NCBI RefSeq assembly: GCF_021216675.1
Contig: NZ_CP086120.1
Span: 3,594,501 to 3,658,500, forward strand
Source: Streptomyces gobiensis
Lineage (GTDB): Bacteria > Actinomycetota > Actinomycetes > Streptomycetales > Streptomycetaceae
Length of the DNA stretch: 64,000 bases
Reading direction: 5' to 3'
The translations under genes were made by a program, and so were the position numbers. Positions 771 through 60,136 of this stretch are shown here, piece by piece. The notes beneath the pieces were generated by a model. That model worked only from the letters and a program-made list of their open reading frames with translations, made no database searches and had not been told where the DNA came from. Numbering within the stretch: the stretch's first letter is position 1; every line of letters begins with the position of its first letter.

Positions 771-1145
771 TCAGTACGCGCGGAACATCGCCCAGGTGTT
801 CTTCCCCACCTTGCCGTCGGCAGCCAGGCCGTGGTCACGCTGGAACTTCTTGACCCACCGCTCGGTCTCGGGCCCGAAGATGCTGTCGACCTTCAGCGGG
901 TTACCGCCCTGCCACAGCTTGTTGATCAGGCACTGCACCTCCTTCACCCGCTTTCCGGTGTGCCCCCGCATGGTCAGTGCCTTCCCGCCGTAGTAGCCAC
1001 AGGACGCGGTGATGGAGACATCGCCGGACTGCTGAGTGGCGGGCTGGGCGGTGGTGCCGGCCTGGGCGGCCGGAGCCAGCGCGCCCGCGCCGCCGAGGAT
1101 GGCGGCGGTCATCGCACCGGCGACGATGCTCCTACGGATGTTCAT
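771..1145 (-). CDS. Secreted peptidoglycan-binding-like domain protein
   Basis: A 124-residue exported protein. Residues 1-29 form a Sec signal peptide (basic MNIRRS start, hydrophobic core, APAAQA-type cleavage site). The remainder is one peptidoglycan_binding_1-like domain, with VKEVQCLI, IFGPETERWVKKFQ and DGKVGKNTW segments. Two cysteines (near residues 49 and 72) could form a disulfide. The start is set by GGAGGAA six bases upstream; longer readings have no signal peptide. The domain closely resembles the extracellular part of the divergently transcribed XRE protein at 1491-2306, including both Cys positions. This suggests a shared ligand or competition for it, which is inference. Family membership is confident; the ligand is unknown. 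Confidence 0.85.
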   Translation of the reverse strand: MNIRRSIVAGAMTAAILGGAGALAPAAQAGTTAQPATQQSGDVSITASCGYYGGKALTMRGHTGKRVKEVQCLINKLWQGGNPLKVDSIFGPETERWVKKFQRDHGLAADGKVGKNTWAMFRAY

Positions 1146-1295
1146 GATGAGTTCCTCCCGTTTGGCGTTCCCCAGTTGTTGTTGGGGACCCTGTCGATGG
1201 GGCGGCGCGGGGTGGACCACGCCGCCCGTTGTGCGTAACCGAGATTGCTCGCCAATCGCATCCGCCGCCACAACAGACGGCTGGAGTGGGCCAAA

Positions 1296-1356
1296 CTGGG
1301 ATGTCCCAGGCCCTGACCTGCTGGGATGACTGCCGCGCGGATACCGTGCTGGGATG
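1296..1356. promoter_or_regulatory. Triple CTGGGATG direct repeats in a divergent promoter region
   Basis: The 345-bp gap 1146-1490 separates the secreted protein from the XRE operon. It carries CTGGGATG three times in the same orientation, at 1296-1303, 1321-1328 and 1349-1356. The first copy is part of a perfect palindrome, CTGGGA-TG-TCCCAG (1296-1309). The spacing of 25 and 28 bp and the position between divergent genes suit an operator for one of the neighbouring HTH proteins. No clear -35/-10 pair was recognised. Confidence 0.45.
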
Positions 1357-1490
1357 TGGGACAGCCATGAACGATGGCTGGAACGGATGGCCGATGGGGG
1401 CGGTACCCGCGCCGGGCGGTAGTTTTCGGGCATCGTTCCGAAAAAACCCGGACTTGACCGTGCCGGGTGCGGACGCGAATGGGGTGGAGC

Positions 1491-2306
1491 ATGTCGCGTT
1501 GGAAGGAGCTGCCGGATTCGCTGGACCAGCGAGTCCGTCAACTCGTCGTACAGATGCGGAGAATGAAGGATCACAGTGGGCTGAGCCTGGCCGCGCTGGC
1601 AGGACGGACCGCGTACAGCCGTTCGTCCTGGGAGCGTTATCTCAACGGCAAGCAACTGCCCTCACGTCAGGCTGTGGAGGAACTGGCCCGCGCCTGTGGC
1701 ACCGAGCCGTCCCGGCTGCTGGTGCTGCACGAAGTGGCGGAGCAGTCCTGGAACGGGGGGATGGAGACGACCGAGGAGACGACCGAGGAGACGACCGAGG
1801 AGACGACCGAGGAGACGACCGAGGAGACGACCGGGGAGACGGCCGGGGAGCCTGCCGCCGAGCCGGTGGCCGCGCCCGTGCCACATCGCCGTGGGCTGTG
1901 GGTGGCGCTGGCCGTGGTAGCGGTGTTCATCGTCGCGGGCGCCGGGCTGCTGGCCGCCCGGCCGTGGCAGCGGGAGGACACCCAACCGCCAGCCGAGGCA
2001 GCGGTGTTCGAGCACAAGCCGGGGCGTACCTACAGCTGCGATGTGACCCGCGAGAACGGCAAGCTCCACGCGGGCCGCAGCGATACGGACACGGCGTTGC
2101 TGGTGCAGGGCAGCGCCGGCTGGGAGGTTGTCGAGGCCCAGTGCCTGCTGGTCCACCACGGGTTTGAGCTCGGCGGTGTCGACGGCGTGTACGGGAACAA
2201 GTCCGAGCGCGCGGTCAAGCGCTTTCAGCGCGAGAACCGCGAGGAACATGGGCTGGTGGTCGACGGCAAGATCGGCCCGCATACCTGGAAGGTCCTCCGC
2301 GACTGA
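1491..2306 (+). CDS. Membrane-anchored XRE regulator with extracellular peptidoglycan-binding-like domain
   Basis: A 271-residue putative transmembrane one-component regulator. Residues 5-75 are a cytoplasmic XRE-type helix-turn-helix (SLAALAGRTAYSRSSWERYLNGK). It is followed by a Thr/Glu linker of ETTE repeats, a single membrane helix near residues 140-160 (LWVALAVVAVFIVAGAGLLA), and an outside domain with CDV, VEAQCLLV, VYGNKSERAVKRFQ and DGKIGPHTW segments. The outside domain is paralogous to the secreted protein at 771-1145. The ATG at 1491 follows GGTGGAG; an in-frame ATG eight codons earlier is less likely. The stop overlaps the next start as TGATG, implying translational coupling. The target genes are unknown. 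Confidence 0.85.
   Translation: MSRWKELPDSLDQRVRQLVVQMRRMKDHSGLSLAALAGRTAYSRSSWERYLNGKQLPSRQAVEELARACGTEPSRLLVLHEVAEQSWNGGMETTEETTEETTEETTEETTEETTGETAGEPAAEPVAAPVPHRRGLWVALAVVAVFIVAGAGLLAARPWQREDTQPPAEAAVFEHKPGRTYSCDVTRENGKLHAGRSDTDTALLVQGSAGWEVVEAQCLLVHHGFELGGVDGVYGNKSERAVKRFQRENREEHGLVVDGKIGPHTWKVLRD
1764..1835 (+). repeat. 12-bp tandem repeat encoding ETTE units
   Basis: Six head-to-tail copies of GAGACGACCGAG lie within the XRE gene, the last one diverged, and encode (ETTE)5-ETTG. The unit keeps frame, so copy-number change would alter only the length of the linker between the DNA-binding domain and the membrane helix. Confidence 0.9.
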
Positions 2307-3208
2307 TGCCCGAGAAGCTGGTGGAGTGCGAGCGGCTGGCGGAGGCGATGCGGGAGCTGCGCGCGGACAGCGGGCTGAGTCTGGCCGCGCTCGCCGAGCG
2401 CACCTCGTACAGCAAGTCCTCCTGGGAGCGCTATCTGAACGGCAAGAAGCTCCCGTCCCGGCAGGCCGTCGAGGAGCTGGTCCGGGTGTGCCGGGCCGAG
2501 CGGGAGGCTGTCCGGCGCTTGGGCGCCCTCTGGGAGCTGGCCGATGCCGCCTGGTCCGGACGGGGCGGCTGGGCCTCACCGCCACCGCAGCCGCAGCCGT
2601 CCGGCGCTACGGAACCTTCGGCGTCAGCGGCGTCAGCGGCATCGGGGCAGTCCGGGCAGTCTGGGCAGTCCGGGGAGTCTGCCCGGCGGGGTGGCTGGCG
2701 GGTGGCTGTACGGGGCCGCCGGGGGGCCGTCACCACGGTGCTGGCCGGGACGGGGGCGCTCACTGCGGTCGGGGCGGCCTTCGCGTTCGGCTTCCTCGGC
2801 AGCGCGTCGGGCGATGCTTCGCCATCGCCGTCACCGGCCCTGACCACCGGCTGCCGTGGGGCGGAGTGCACCGGCAAGGACCCCGAGCAGAACGCGTGCG
2901 GCGCCGCGCATGCTGACCCTGTGACGGTCGCCGAGTACCGGTCCGCCAGCGGGGCGCGGCTGGAGATCCGCTACAGCACGGTGTGCTCGGCGGGTTGGGG
3001 CCGTATCTGGAACGCGGATATCGGCGACCGTGTGCTGGTCACCTCTTCGGCTGATAAGAATGGTGCCTCTCAAGTCGCCCGGGTCGACGATGAATATGAC
3101 GCGGACGGCTATGTGTACACCCGTATGACGTGGGCTTCTGACCGTTCGGAGCTGCGGGCTTGTCTGCTGCCGAAGGACGGCGGGGAGCGCGAGTGCTTTC
3201 CTCCCTAG
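2306..3208 (+). CDS. Membrane-anchored XRE regulator with DUF2690 domain (first copy)
   Basis: A 300-residue protein with an N-terminal XRE helix-turn-helix (residues 10-75, SLAALAERTSYSKSSWERYLNGK), a Ser/Gly/Gln-rich linker, one membrane helix near 150-170, and an extracellular DUF2690 domain of about 110 residues. The DUF2690 signature is visible: CRGAECTGKDPE, a following Cys, an EIRYST segment and a CSAGWGRIW segment, with several cysteines likely in disulfides. It starts on the ATG that overlaps the upstream stop by one base. DUF2690 proteins are common in Streptomyces, often fused to an XRE domain, but their ligand is unknown. Here the gene forms an operon with the preceding XRE gene. 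Confidence 0.85.
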   Translation: MPEKLVECERLAEAMRELRADSGLSLAALAERTSYSKSSWERYLNGKKLPSRQAVEELVRVCRAEREAVRRLGALWELADAAWSGRGGWASPPPQPQPSGATEPSASAASAASGQSGQSGQSGESARRGGWRVAVRGRRGAVTTVLAGTGALTAVGAAFAFGFLGSASGDASPSPSPALTTGCRGAECTGKDPEQNACGAAHADPVTVAEYRSASGARLEIRYSTVCSAGWGRIWNADIGDRVLVTSSADKNGASQVARVDDEYDADGYVYTRMTWASDRSELRACLLPKDGGERECFPP

Positions 3209-3240
3209 TGGCACACTGGCACATGGGGGATTCACCACAG

Positions 3241-3267
3241 CACGTACAGCACATACAGCACGTACAG
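3241..3267 (+). repeat. 9-bp tandem repeat between the two DUF2690 genes
   Basis: Three units, CACGTACAG, CACATACAG and CACGTACAG, lie in the 77-nt spacer before the third XRE gene. They sit 13 nt upstream of its GGGGGAGG ribosome site. Whether they bind a regulator is unknown. Confidence 0.6.
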
Positions 3268-3285
3268 GGGGAGGAGGGGGAGGCA

Positions 3286-4353
3286 ATGCCTCGTTGGAGG
3301 GCGCTGCCGGAGGAGCTGGATCCAGAGATCCGTGAGTTCGCGGGCCAGATGCGACGTCTTGTGGACCGCAGCGGACTGAGCATCGCCGCGGTCGCGGACC
3401 GTACCGGCTACAGCAAGACGTCCTGGGAGCGCTATCTCAATGGACGGCTGCTCCCGCCGCAGGGGGCGATCTCCGCGCTGGCCGAGGTGACCGGCACAGA
3501 CGTACGGCATCTGGCGACCATGTGGGAGCTGGCCGAACGGGCCTGGAGCCGGGCCGAGATGCGGCACGACATGACGATGGAGGCCATACGGATCTCCCAG
3601 GCCCGGGAGGCGCTGGGGGCGTTCGAACCGGACGCCCCGGCGGCGAAGAAGAAGGCCAGGGGACGGGACAGGACGAAGCCGGTCAATGCCGCCACCCCGC
3701 TGCCGCCAGGCCCGGAGGAGACCGACTCAACCACGGTGCTCCGCCGTCAGTCCCGGGCTCCGGCGCAGCCGGTCGCGCCGCGGGACCGGCGGTACCACGC
3801 GCCGCAGCCGCCCGGCCCTGCCGGTCCTGCCACGCCGCCGCTCCAGGGCGGGGGCGGCCATCCCTCCGGCTCGCGCCGGGCGGGGATGTTCCTGGCGGGA
3901 GTGGTGGGCGCGCTGGCGGTCATAGGGGCCGCGGTGTTCCTCTTCGATCTGGGCGGCGGCGAGGACCAGGCCGCCGCGGAGCCGACGACGGCCCCCACGA
4001 AGCCCGCCCCGAAACTCCCGGCCGGGGTCAAGTGCTCGGGCGAGGACTGTGCCGGTGAGGATCCGGAGCTGATGGGCTGTGGCGGTCAGTACGCCGAGAC
4101 CACCTCCGACGCCATCTTCAGCGGCGCCTATATCGAGGTGCGGTACAGCGAGGTGTGCAAGGCGGCCTGGGCCCGGGTCACCGACGCCGCGCCGGGCGCC
4201 ACGGTGCGTATAACGGCCGACCAGAAGACAGAGGACAGCAAGGTCGGCGAGGACACGGACGGTTACACCAAGATGGTCGCCGCCAAGAACGCCGAGGCGG
4301 CTCGGGTCTGTCTGGAGACGGCCGTCGGCGCCGAGGGCTGCACCACGTCGTAA
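3286..4353 (+). CDS. Membrane-anchored XRE regulator with DUF2690 domain (second copy)
   Basis: A 355-residue paralogue of the previous gene. The XRE domain spans residues 10-80 (SIAAVADRTGYSKTSWERYLNGR). A long, basic then Pro/Gln-rich linker follows, with a membrane helix near 205-225 and a C-terminal DUF2690 domain (CSGEDCAGEDPE, IEVRYSEVCKAAWARV). The ATG at 3286 follows a strong GGGGGAGG; upstream in-frame ATGs would add an N-terminus absent from its paralogues. It is separated from gene 2306-3208 by 77 nt with a small tandem repeat, so it may have its own promoter. The three XRE proteins share the same helix-turn-helix and likely arose by duplication. Confidence 0.85.
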   Translation: MPRWRALPEELDPEIREFAGQMRRLVDRSGLSIAAVADRTGYSKTSWERYLNGRLLPPQGAISALAEVTGTDVRHLATMWELAERAWSRAEMRHDMTMEAIRISQAREALGAFEPDAPAAKKKARGRDRTKPVNAATPLPPGPEETDSTTVLRRQSRAPAQPVAPRDRRYHAPQPPGPAGPATPPLQGGGGHPSGSRRAGMFLAGVVGALAVIGAAVFLFDLGGGEDQAAAEPTTAPTKPAPKLPAGVKCSGEDCAGEDPELMGCGGQYAETTSDAIFSGAYIEVRYSEVCKAAWARVTDAAPGATVRITADQKTEDSKVGEDTDGYTKMVAAKNAEAARVCLETAVGAEGCTTS

Positions 4354-4510: not shown

Positions 4511-5584
<1,074 letters not shown>

Positions 5585-5841: not shown

Positions 5842-6360
5842 TCAGTTGCCGATGCGTATGTCGATGCAGGCGTAGAACGCGTTGGGGGTGTCGGCTATGT
5901 TCCAGACCGCGAGCACCTTCTGGTGGCCGCTGATGCCACCGAAGTTGACCTGGTGCGTGACGGTCTCGCCCGGCCGGGCGCCGCCGTCGTTGAACTCCGC
6001 GACCTTGGTGCCGCCCACGAAGTACTGCCAGGTGCTGGTGGCGTGCCGGGCGGTCAGCCGCCACTGGAATGACTGGCTGCTGCTGACGGGGGTGACGGGC
6101 CAGCCCTTGCTGTCGTCGTCCAGCTCGGCGAACCGTCCGTTGCCACCGCTGCAGCTCCGCAGGCCCTTTGGCCCTTCGACGCTCTGCGGCTCGTACTTTA
6201 TGTCGCCGCAGGAGACCGTTCCGGCTGCGCACTGGGCCTGGCGGGAGGGGGGTGAGTTCACATATCCGTGCGCGCTCGCCGGGCTGGCGGGCAGCGTGAT
6301 GACGAGGAGAGGGGCGACTGCCGCGCCGATCGCGACGGCCAGCTTCCTGTTCTTGTGCAT
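5842..6360 (-). CDS. Lytic polysaccharide monooxygenase, AA10 family (chitin-binding)
   Basis: A 172-residue secreted copper enzyme that oxidatively cleaves crystalline chitin or cellulose. Residues 1-30 are a signal peptide ending SPASA. Cleavage exposes His31 of HGYV, the first ligand of the copper histidine brace. The second histidine is in TARHATSTWQYF, and the C-terminal NAFYACID segment carries the usual axial aromatic. The start ATG at 6358-6360 follows AGGGAG. There is no extra carbohydrate-binding module, so this is a minimal single-domain AA10. Chitin is the likelier substrate, but residues alone do not settle it. A GH20 hexosaminidase at 42 kb could act downstream on chitin fragments. 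Confidence 0.93.
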   Translation of the reverse strand: MHKNRKLAVAIGAAVAPLLVITLPASPASAHGYVNSPPSRQAQCAAGTVSCGDIKYEPQSVEGPKGLRSCSGGNGRFAELDDDSKGWPVTPVSSSQSFQWRLTARHATSTWQYFVGGTKVAEFNDGGARPGETVTHQVNFGGISGHQKVLAVWNIADTPNAFYACIDIRIGN

Positions 6361-6513
6361 GCCAACTCCCTGATGGAGGCCGCCGCTCAAATGGGGGTTG
6401 AGGGCTTCGGCGGCCTCGTTGACTGTGGGGGGAGGCGAGTGGGTTCTTCACATCGCCAATTGGTCTAGACTTAACGATTGTCAGACCACCGTCAAGAGAC
6501 CAGGGAGGGCTGG

Positions 6514-59197: not shown

Positions 59198-60136
59198 TCA
59201 GCTGTAGACGATGACCTTGTCGCCCGGCTTCACCGCGTTGAAGACCTGGGCGATTTTCTCTTTCTGCCGGACATTGACGCAGCCGTGCGAGGCCCCGTTG
59301 TAGCCGGTCGCCGCGAAGTCCGCGGAGTAGTGCACCGCCTGGCCGCCGCTGAAGAACATCGCGTAGGGCATCGGGGTGTCGTAGAGAGTCGAGTGATGGT
59401 GTCGGCTCTTGAAGTCAACCTTGAAGGTGCCCTCCCGGGTCGGGGTGTACTGCGAGCCGAAGCGCACATCCATCGCCGAGATGACCTTGCCGTCAACCAT
59501 CCACGCCAGCGTCCGGCTCTCCTTGCTGATACACAGCACCCGGCCGGACAGACAGCGCGGATCGGGATTGCCGACCGGGAAGCTCGTCTGTGGGTACAGC
59601 TGTTCGCGCGTCGGCTCGCTGGTCTGCTTCCGCAGCGCTGCCCAGGTGGCCTCGGTGACCGTCCCCGTCTGTGCCAGGCCCTGCCTCTTCTGCAGCGCCT
59701 GTACGGCAGCCGCCGTGAACGACCCGTAGTAGCCCGTGGCATTGCGGTTGAACAGCCCCAGTTGCTGAAGCCGTGCCTGCACCTCCCGCACCGCCTCGCC
59801 CTCGCTGCCGTTGGTCAGCAGCGGGACGTTCTTCATACCGGGCGTCGGTGCTGGCCTCGGTGGCGTCGGCGCTGGTGCCGACCGCTCCGTCTGCGCTGGT
59901 CGCGCTGTGAGAGGTGTCTGTGGTGGCGGCTGTGTCCGCCGCTGCGTTGGTGCCGGTGTCGGCGGCGGTGCCGGCATCGGGCTGGCCGGGCTGGTGCTCG
60001 CGGACAGAGCCGTTCCGTCCTTGCCGTATGCCCCGTTGTCCGCCGCCCGCGCGTTGCATCCCACGGTCAGCGCCAGCGCGGCGAGCCCCGCCAGCGTCCC
60101 CAGTGTCCGACTGCGTCTGTTCGGAATCCCCGTCAT
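59198..60136 (-). CDS. L,D-transpeptidase lipoprotein with peptidoglycan-binding domain
   Basis: A 312-residue lipoprotein. The signal ends in lipobox TVGC. A Pro/Thr-rich linker to about residue 95 is followed by a peptidoglycan_binding_1 domain ([15 protein letters not shown] to TWAALRK) and a YkuD domain. The catalytic motif [22 protein letters not shown] holds the conserved His and Cys of SHGC. It makes 3-3 crosslinks in peptidoglycan or anchors proteins. ATG 60134-60136 follows GGGGGAG. It is divergent from the mutase. Confidence 0.92.

Follow-up and report, generated by a model that had tools for sequence, protein, structure and literature searches.

The window analysed here, a stretch of 64,000 nucleotides from Streptomyces gobiensis (contig NZ_CP086120.1, positions 3,594,501 to 3,658,500), carries between icd (ending at 658) and mdh (4595-5584) four genes, for a small secreted protein and three membrane-anchored regulators of the XRE family. 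By sequence comparison, the unit is a three-gene module, formed by the adjacent regulator genes xrePG and xreD1 and the divergent gene of the secreted protein, with the third regulator gene, xreD2, as an independent neighbour. We consider it probable that this module connects the envelope to secretion, the membrane-bound XRE pair controlling secreted proteins through a composite operator. This reading is built on features visible in the sequences themselves: the architecture and topology signals of the proteins, the pairing of the regulators, the operator, the promoter spacing, the exchange of the secreted protein (hereafter, the cargo) between loci, and the operator sites found away from the regulator genes. 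The features concerned (HTH, helix-turn-helix; TM, transmembrane) are the following:

771..1145, minus strand: secreted PG_binding_1 protein, 124 aa, with a signal peptide and two Cys; the module cargo.
1239..1272, minus strand: putative core promoter of the secreted gene, TGTGGC-N18-GCAATCTCGG.
1295..1357, plus strand: putative 63-bp composite operator, with the palindrome CTGGGATGTCCCAG (1296-1309), a TGACCTGC block and further GGGA[C/T]G repeats.
1491..2306, plus strand: xrePG, 271 aa (XRE HTH, TM segment, PG_binding_1 ectodomain).
1539..1715, plus strand: HTH_31 domain of xrePG (Pfam).
1902..1958, plus strand: TM segment of xrePG (hydropathy).
2124..2297, plus strand: PG_binding_1 ectodomain of xrePG (Pfam; root-mean-square deviation of 1.0 from the SleB domain 6tci).
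2306..3208, plus strand: xreD1, 300 aa (XRE HTH, TM segment, DUF2690 ectodomain with six Cys).
2864..3163, plus strand: DUF2690 ectodomain of xreD1 (Pfam; modelled at a predicted local distance difference test, pLDDT, of 95.7).
3286..4353, plus strand: xreD2, 355 aa (XRE HTH, TM segment, DUF2690), the mdh neighbour, judged to lie outside the module.

The stop codon of xrePG (TGA, 2304-2306) and the start codon of xreD1 (ATG, 2306) share one base, and the 345-bp divergent region between the secreted gene and xrePG carries both the operator and the promoter. The initial annotation had placed four genes here with these domains, and the Pfam matches and gene calls agree with it. The secreted protein matches PG_binding_1 (7.7e-15), xrePG combines HTH_31 (3.8e-16) with PG_binding_1 (1.6e-12), and xreD1 and xreD2 combine HTH_31 (3.3e-15 and 4.5e-15, respectively) with DUF2690 (2.6e-13 and 1.9e-12). 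The HTH_31 matches (59.6, 56.6 and 56.1 bits, for a curated cut-off of 27) place all three regulators in the XRE family, and both the PG_binding_1 score (47.8 bits, for a cut-off of 23) and the fold assign that domain to its own family, from whose name peptidoglycan binding is predicted. The genome of S. gobiensis holds only two DUF2690 domains, both at this locus, and eight PG_binding_1 matches, two of them at the locus; the strongest of the eight (59633-59800, minus strand, 68.7 bits, in a 392-aa open frame) lies in the window at a distance from the module.

Each XRE protein of the window has a single hydrophobic segment, located between the HTH and the ectodomain, and the SxWERYLNG motif common to them corresponds to the recognition region of the HTH and is conserved between species, as the earlier description of a shared HTH and one membrane helix in each had it. 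We compared the window with 81 further loci (82 in total). By hydropathy, one strong hydrophobic segment is present in 82/82 xrePG and 87/87 XRE-DUF2690 proteins; its flank on the HTH side is the more positive one in 79/82 and 83/87, the number of ectodomain Cys is even in 81/82 and 86/87, and 71 of the 74 DUF2690 ectodomains have six Cys. A single TM segment, a more positive cytoplasmic flank and an even Cys count are the features expected of a protein that is oriented N-in, C-out and forms disulfides outside the cytoplasm. For xrePG, the AlphaFold model shows an XRE fold (with Foldseek matches to 3f6w, C.AhdI and lambda-type HTH domains) and a peptidoglycan-binding (PGB) fold close to that of SleB, which aligns with the SleB PGB domain over 69 columns at 36% identity. 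The model of the xreD1 DUF2690 domain is confident, and a sequence search of the PDB returned no solved relative of it. The linker between the HTH and the TM segment of xrePG is variable; in the window a 12-bp tandem repeat (1766-1835, GAGACGACCGAG) encodes a TEETTEE linker, and repeats of this type are absent from the relatives aligned.

The regulators travel as a pair. A search with xrePG found related HTH proteins in most of the 199 genomes of the genus covered, and a clear whole-length relative in about a third of them (counted from the match table); named genomes supplied another 22 loci. In 80/82 loci the XRE-TM-PGB gene is directly followed by an XRE-TM-DUF2690 gene; the divergent slot often holds a secreted gene, which upholds the earlier proposal that membrane-anchored XRE regulators are conserved together with a divergent secreted protein. 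The surroundings of the pair are varied, most loci having neither icd nor mdh. The module is also present in S. albidoflavus (L051).

The operator has the consensus GGGAYGTCCC-N5-YTGACCTGC plus GGGACG repeats. In the window, CTGGGATGTCCCAG lies in the region 1145-1491 and the composite pattern occurs once, without mismatch, at 1298-1321. Across species, the palindrome GGGACGTCCC is present in 41 of 78 non-redundant upstream regions and in practically no shuffled sequence, and is followed by the conserved TGACCTGC block and then by the GGGACG repeats. With a 63-bp weight matrix, 76/82 upstream regions exceed a score of 15, whereas none of 193 control windows scores higher than -18, and most of the 31 loci lacking the exact palindrome, which were outside the matrix training, also exceed 15. 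As a negative control with the same kind of HTH, the 420 bp ahead of each of 30 xreD2 genes give background scores, and 27 of the 30 xreD2 relatives fetched lie within 1.5 kb of mdh. The four-gene order proposed as a unit across Streptomyces is thus rejected, since xreD2 accompanies mdh and has no operator; as xreD2 has a distribution of its own, the three-gene module simply happens to adjoin it and mdh in this genome. In the gap before xreD2 (3208-3286) there are imperfect copies of a CACGTACAG repeat, which may serve the mdh-linked XRE as a regulatory element of its own, and just past mdh (5842-6390, minus strand) an open reading frame (ORF) resembles, by eye, a secreted AA10-type chitin-binding monooxygenase, with HGYVNSPPSR after the signal peptide.

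Toward the secreted gene, the palindrome is followed by TGTGGC-N18/19-GCAnTCTCG. The shorter form TGGC-N18/19-GCA occurs at 62 of the 86 non-redundant sites, against 0.5% of shuffles; its TGGC falls on one or two adjacent positions, in most sites 32.5 nt from the centre of the palindrome. Were TGTGGC the -35 element, the palindrome would be centred near -65, a position that suits an activator. In the mechanism that we propose, xrePG and xreD1 would be co-expressed as single-pass proteins with their HTH domains inside the cell and would bind as a pair to one and the same composite operator, between the divergent genes; from there, about 65 bp before the transcription start, the activator could contact RNA polymerase. 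On meeting a signal, most plausibly a cell-wall glycan such as peptidoglycan or a change in the wall, the ectodomains would alter how the secreted gene is transcribed, together with any unlinked secreted genes that carry this operator; the secreted protein would be the output, swapped among families between species. The opposite sign, with the pair repressing the secreted gene until a signal relieves the repression, is unlikely, even if it deserves serious consideration given that many XRE proteins are repressors and that the operator is large and repeated; the palindrome centre, however, keeps a constant distance of about 33 bp upstream of TGGC and does not fall within the core promoter, which argues against repression.

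The composite pattern was also searched for in the 199 genomes. Most exact sites away from regulator genes have a signal-peptide ORF about 100-140 bp off, on the expected strand. Taking 93 operator sites, the start of a signal-peptide ORF lies 74-225 bp away in 72 of them (most commonly 118 bp), against 15 of 1257 random positions (1.2%), as judged by a caller that uses start codon, ribosome site, hydrophobic segment, AxA and third-position GC and was checked against random positions only. The S. gobiensis genome (5.69 Mb) has only two exact composite sites, the one in the window and another at 2.88 Mb, which lies ahead of the gene for a secreted protein of 148 aa, made up of PG-binding-like repeats and related to the cargo of other species' modules; no XRE relative was found near this second site. 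Allowing up to three mismatches gave 27 inexact matches in this genome, against 22 in the reversed control, so no regulon members can be claimed beyond the two exact sites. Three one-mismatch matches (L159, L166 and L167) lie in conserved coding sequence and were treated as chance. In an outgroup, from another family of the same order, the pair is kept and the search for an upstream operator was negative. There are, near the pair, weaker sites that resemble the operator, and for three of the four a secreted gene begins 144-206 bp away (two products ricin-B-type lectin-like by eye, and one PGB protein), the fourth case showing no obvious secreted gene.

The sites also follow the regulators between genomes: the pair is present in 28 of the 30 genomes with an exact site and in about 39 of the 169 others, an approximate figure, as presence per genome was judged from the match table (Fisher p about 1.5e-13). 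This co-occurrence bears on a second alternative, in which the operator belongs to another regulator or to a sigma-factor system and the XRE pair is merely co-located and controls something else. Such a reading could appeal to the core promoter, which is unlike the housekeeping consensus, and to the fact that operator binding by the pair is a prediction; it is nevertheless improbable, given the concentration of exact sites in pair-bearing genomes, the way in which the operator keeps to the divergent promoter region of the pair, and the finding that the two exact-site genomes without the pair have a DUF2690 remnant (L151) or another XRE ORF (L152) near the site.

The cargo is the variable part of the module. 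A divergent gene for a PGB protein is present in 43/82 loci, usually 190-450 bp upstream, and many of the remaining loci have a different small secreted protein in that slot. By sequence, the secreted proteins at operator sites form 12 clusters (PG-binding, I36 inhibitor-like, amylase-inhibitor-like and others), counts that depend on the simple secreted-gene caller and the BLAST threshold. PG-binding proteins are the largest family, another matches Inhibitor_I36 (Pfam, 2.5e-15), another falls just below the alpha-amylase inhibitor cut-off (Pfam, 24.6 bits for 25), and several have no Pfam match. Local duplication of the cassette is suggested by an additional XRE-TM gene in L052 and L053, and by a second operator with its own secreted gene in L170.

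Since the cargo varies beside constant regulators, the secreted gene would be the target. The initial annotation had instead seen in the secreted protein a soluble copy of the regulator's sensor domain, suggesting ligand competition or a decoy: the secreted PGB protein would vie with the xrePG ectodomain for a wall ligand and so feed back on the regulator. In the window, the two domains do belong to one Pfam family with the same Cys arrangement (42% identity, Cys/QCL spacing aligned), and PG-binding proteins are the largest cargo family; the secreted domain is, however, no closer to its neighbour's ectodomain than to PGB domains of other species, and secreted PGB proteins best resemble one another, and not a regulator ectodomain, in 39/43 cases. 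The likeness in the window is thus a general PG_binding_1 resemblance. As a general description the soluble copy fails, with unrelated secreted proteins (I36-like, amylase-inhibitor-like and others) behind the same operator at about 30 sites where the regulator retains its PGB ectodomain. We therefore regard ligand competition as improbable too, and the secreted protein as more likely the target and output of the module than a decoy.

Finally, RodZ is a protein with a cytoplasmic HTH, one TM segment and an extracytoplasmic domain, a layout shared by the XRE proteins, whose ectodomains also appear wall-directed, but a RodZ-like morphogenetic role, with the HTH binding a cytoskeletal or division partner instead of DNA and the proteins shaping the wall, is highly improbable, as Pfam lists neither HTH_25 nor DUF4115 for any of the three XRE proteins, even with E allowed up to 1, their recognition helix is strongly kept, a conserved operator adjoins the genes and the pair has an accessory distribution. 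RodZ itself differs in having another HTH family together with DUF4115, with the linked DNA operator found only here.

Several points weigh against control of secretion by the XRE pair through this operator. Six of the 82 loci are under the operator threshold (one of them, L054, has an operator with an indel, and another, L063, has it beside a relocated secreted gene), and at 21 of the 93 operator sites the simple caller accepts no secreted gene. Loci and genomes were counted as independent despite their shared ancestry, which overstates their independence, and the genome comparison includes the approximate figure given above. The sign of the regulation is deduced from the geometry of the site, the operator might be read by another factor, and structure searches with the DUF2690 fold gave only low-confidence matches (best Foldseek E 0.059, best VIA-align Z 6.5), none of them a confident match to a known binding domain, so that no function was taken from them.

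With the envelope-to-secretion module as the probable reading, a more specific and more tentative version may be put forward, in which the XRE pair, one member with a PG-binding ectodomain, would sense the wall directly and switch on a fixed promoter that drives exchanged small secreted effectors (wall-binding, protease-inhibitor-like, amylase-inhibitor-like or lectin-like); it would then be a plug-in cassette for secretion, used to defend the wall or to compete. For membrane regulators of a family that is apparently undescribed, the module supplies an operator, a promoter and a set of targets that can be tested. It also provides DUF2690, an orphan domain, with a candidate role, and suggests a possible route coupling wall state to the secretion of small disulfide-rich proteins, without kinase or anti-sigma factor, in filamentous soil bacteria. 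Additionally, with cargo exchanged behind a constant regulator and promoter, operator searches may reveal new secreted inhibitors and wall-binding proteins.

In the literature searched, whose coverage left out most subscription journals, neither this operator nor regulators with DUF2690 turned up, nor did XRE proteins whose ectodomain is of the PG-binding type; GGGACGTCCC was not found together with Streptomyces, and DUF2690 appeared in one unrelated fungal list only. Transmembrane transcription regulators (TTRs) are, according to the main text of a survey, a known and widespread class, mostly single-pass, with ToxR as the classic case, which combine a DNA-binding domain, a single TM helix and an extracytoplasmic domain in one protein (PMC10269533); this main text does not mention peptidoglycan, HTH_31 or Actinobacteria. 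The present proteins conform to this class, with HTH_31 and one TM segment in 82/82 xrePG proteins, and transcription control from the membrane by the pair is predicted indirectly, from the conserved operator. The novelty earlier claimed for transmembrane XRE signalling from peptidoglycan is thus reduced, as one-component regulators bound to the membrane are a kind already known, although the papers searched yielded no XRE-type member that senses peptidoglycan. Different from known TTRs are the two XRE-type members with unlike ectodomains, kept as a conserved pair with a defined operator and exchangeable secreted cargo. The XRE-DUF397 pairs, present in several copies per Streptomyces genome (PMC10364602, PMC6262351), are also paired genes including an XRE regulator, but their DUF397 partner is small, whereas here both members are XRE proteins with a TM segment and an ectodomain; the four locus proteins have no Pfam match to DUF397, and the XRE partner is XRE-TM-DUF2690 in those same 80 loci. 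The xrePG ectodomain, lastly, shares its fold with the SleB-type peptidoglycan-binding domain (6tci), which is there the anchor of a hydrolase and here the ectodomain of a regulator.
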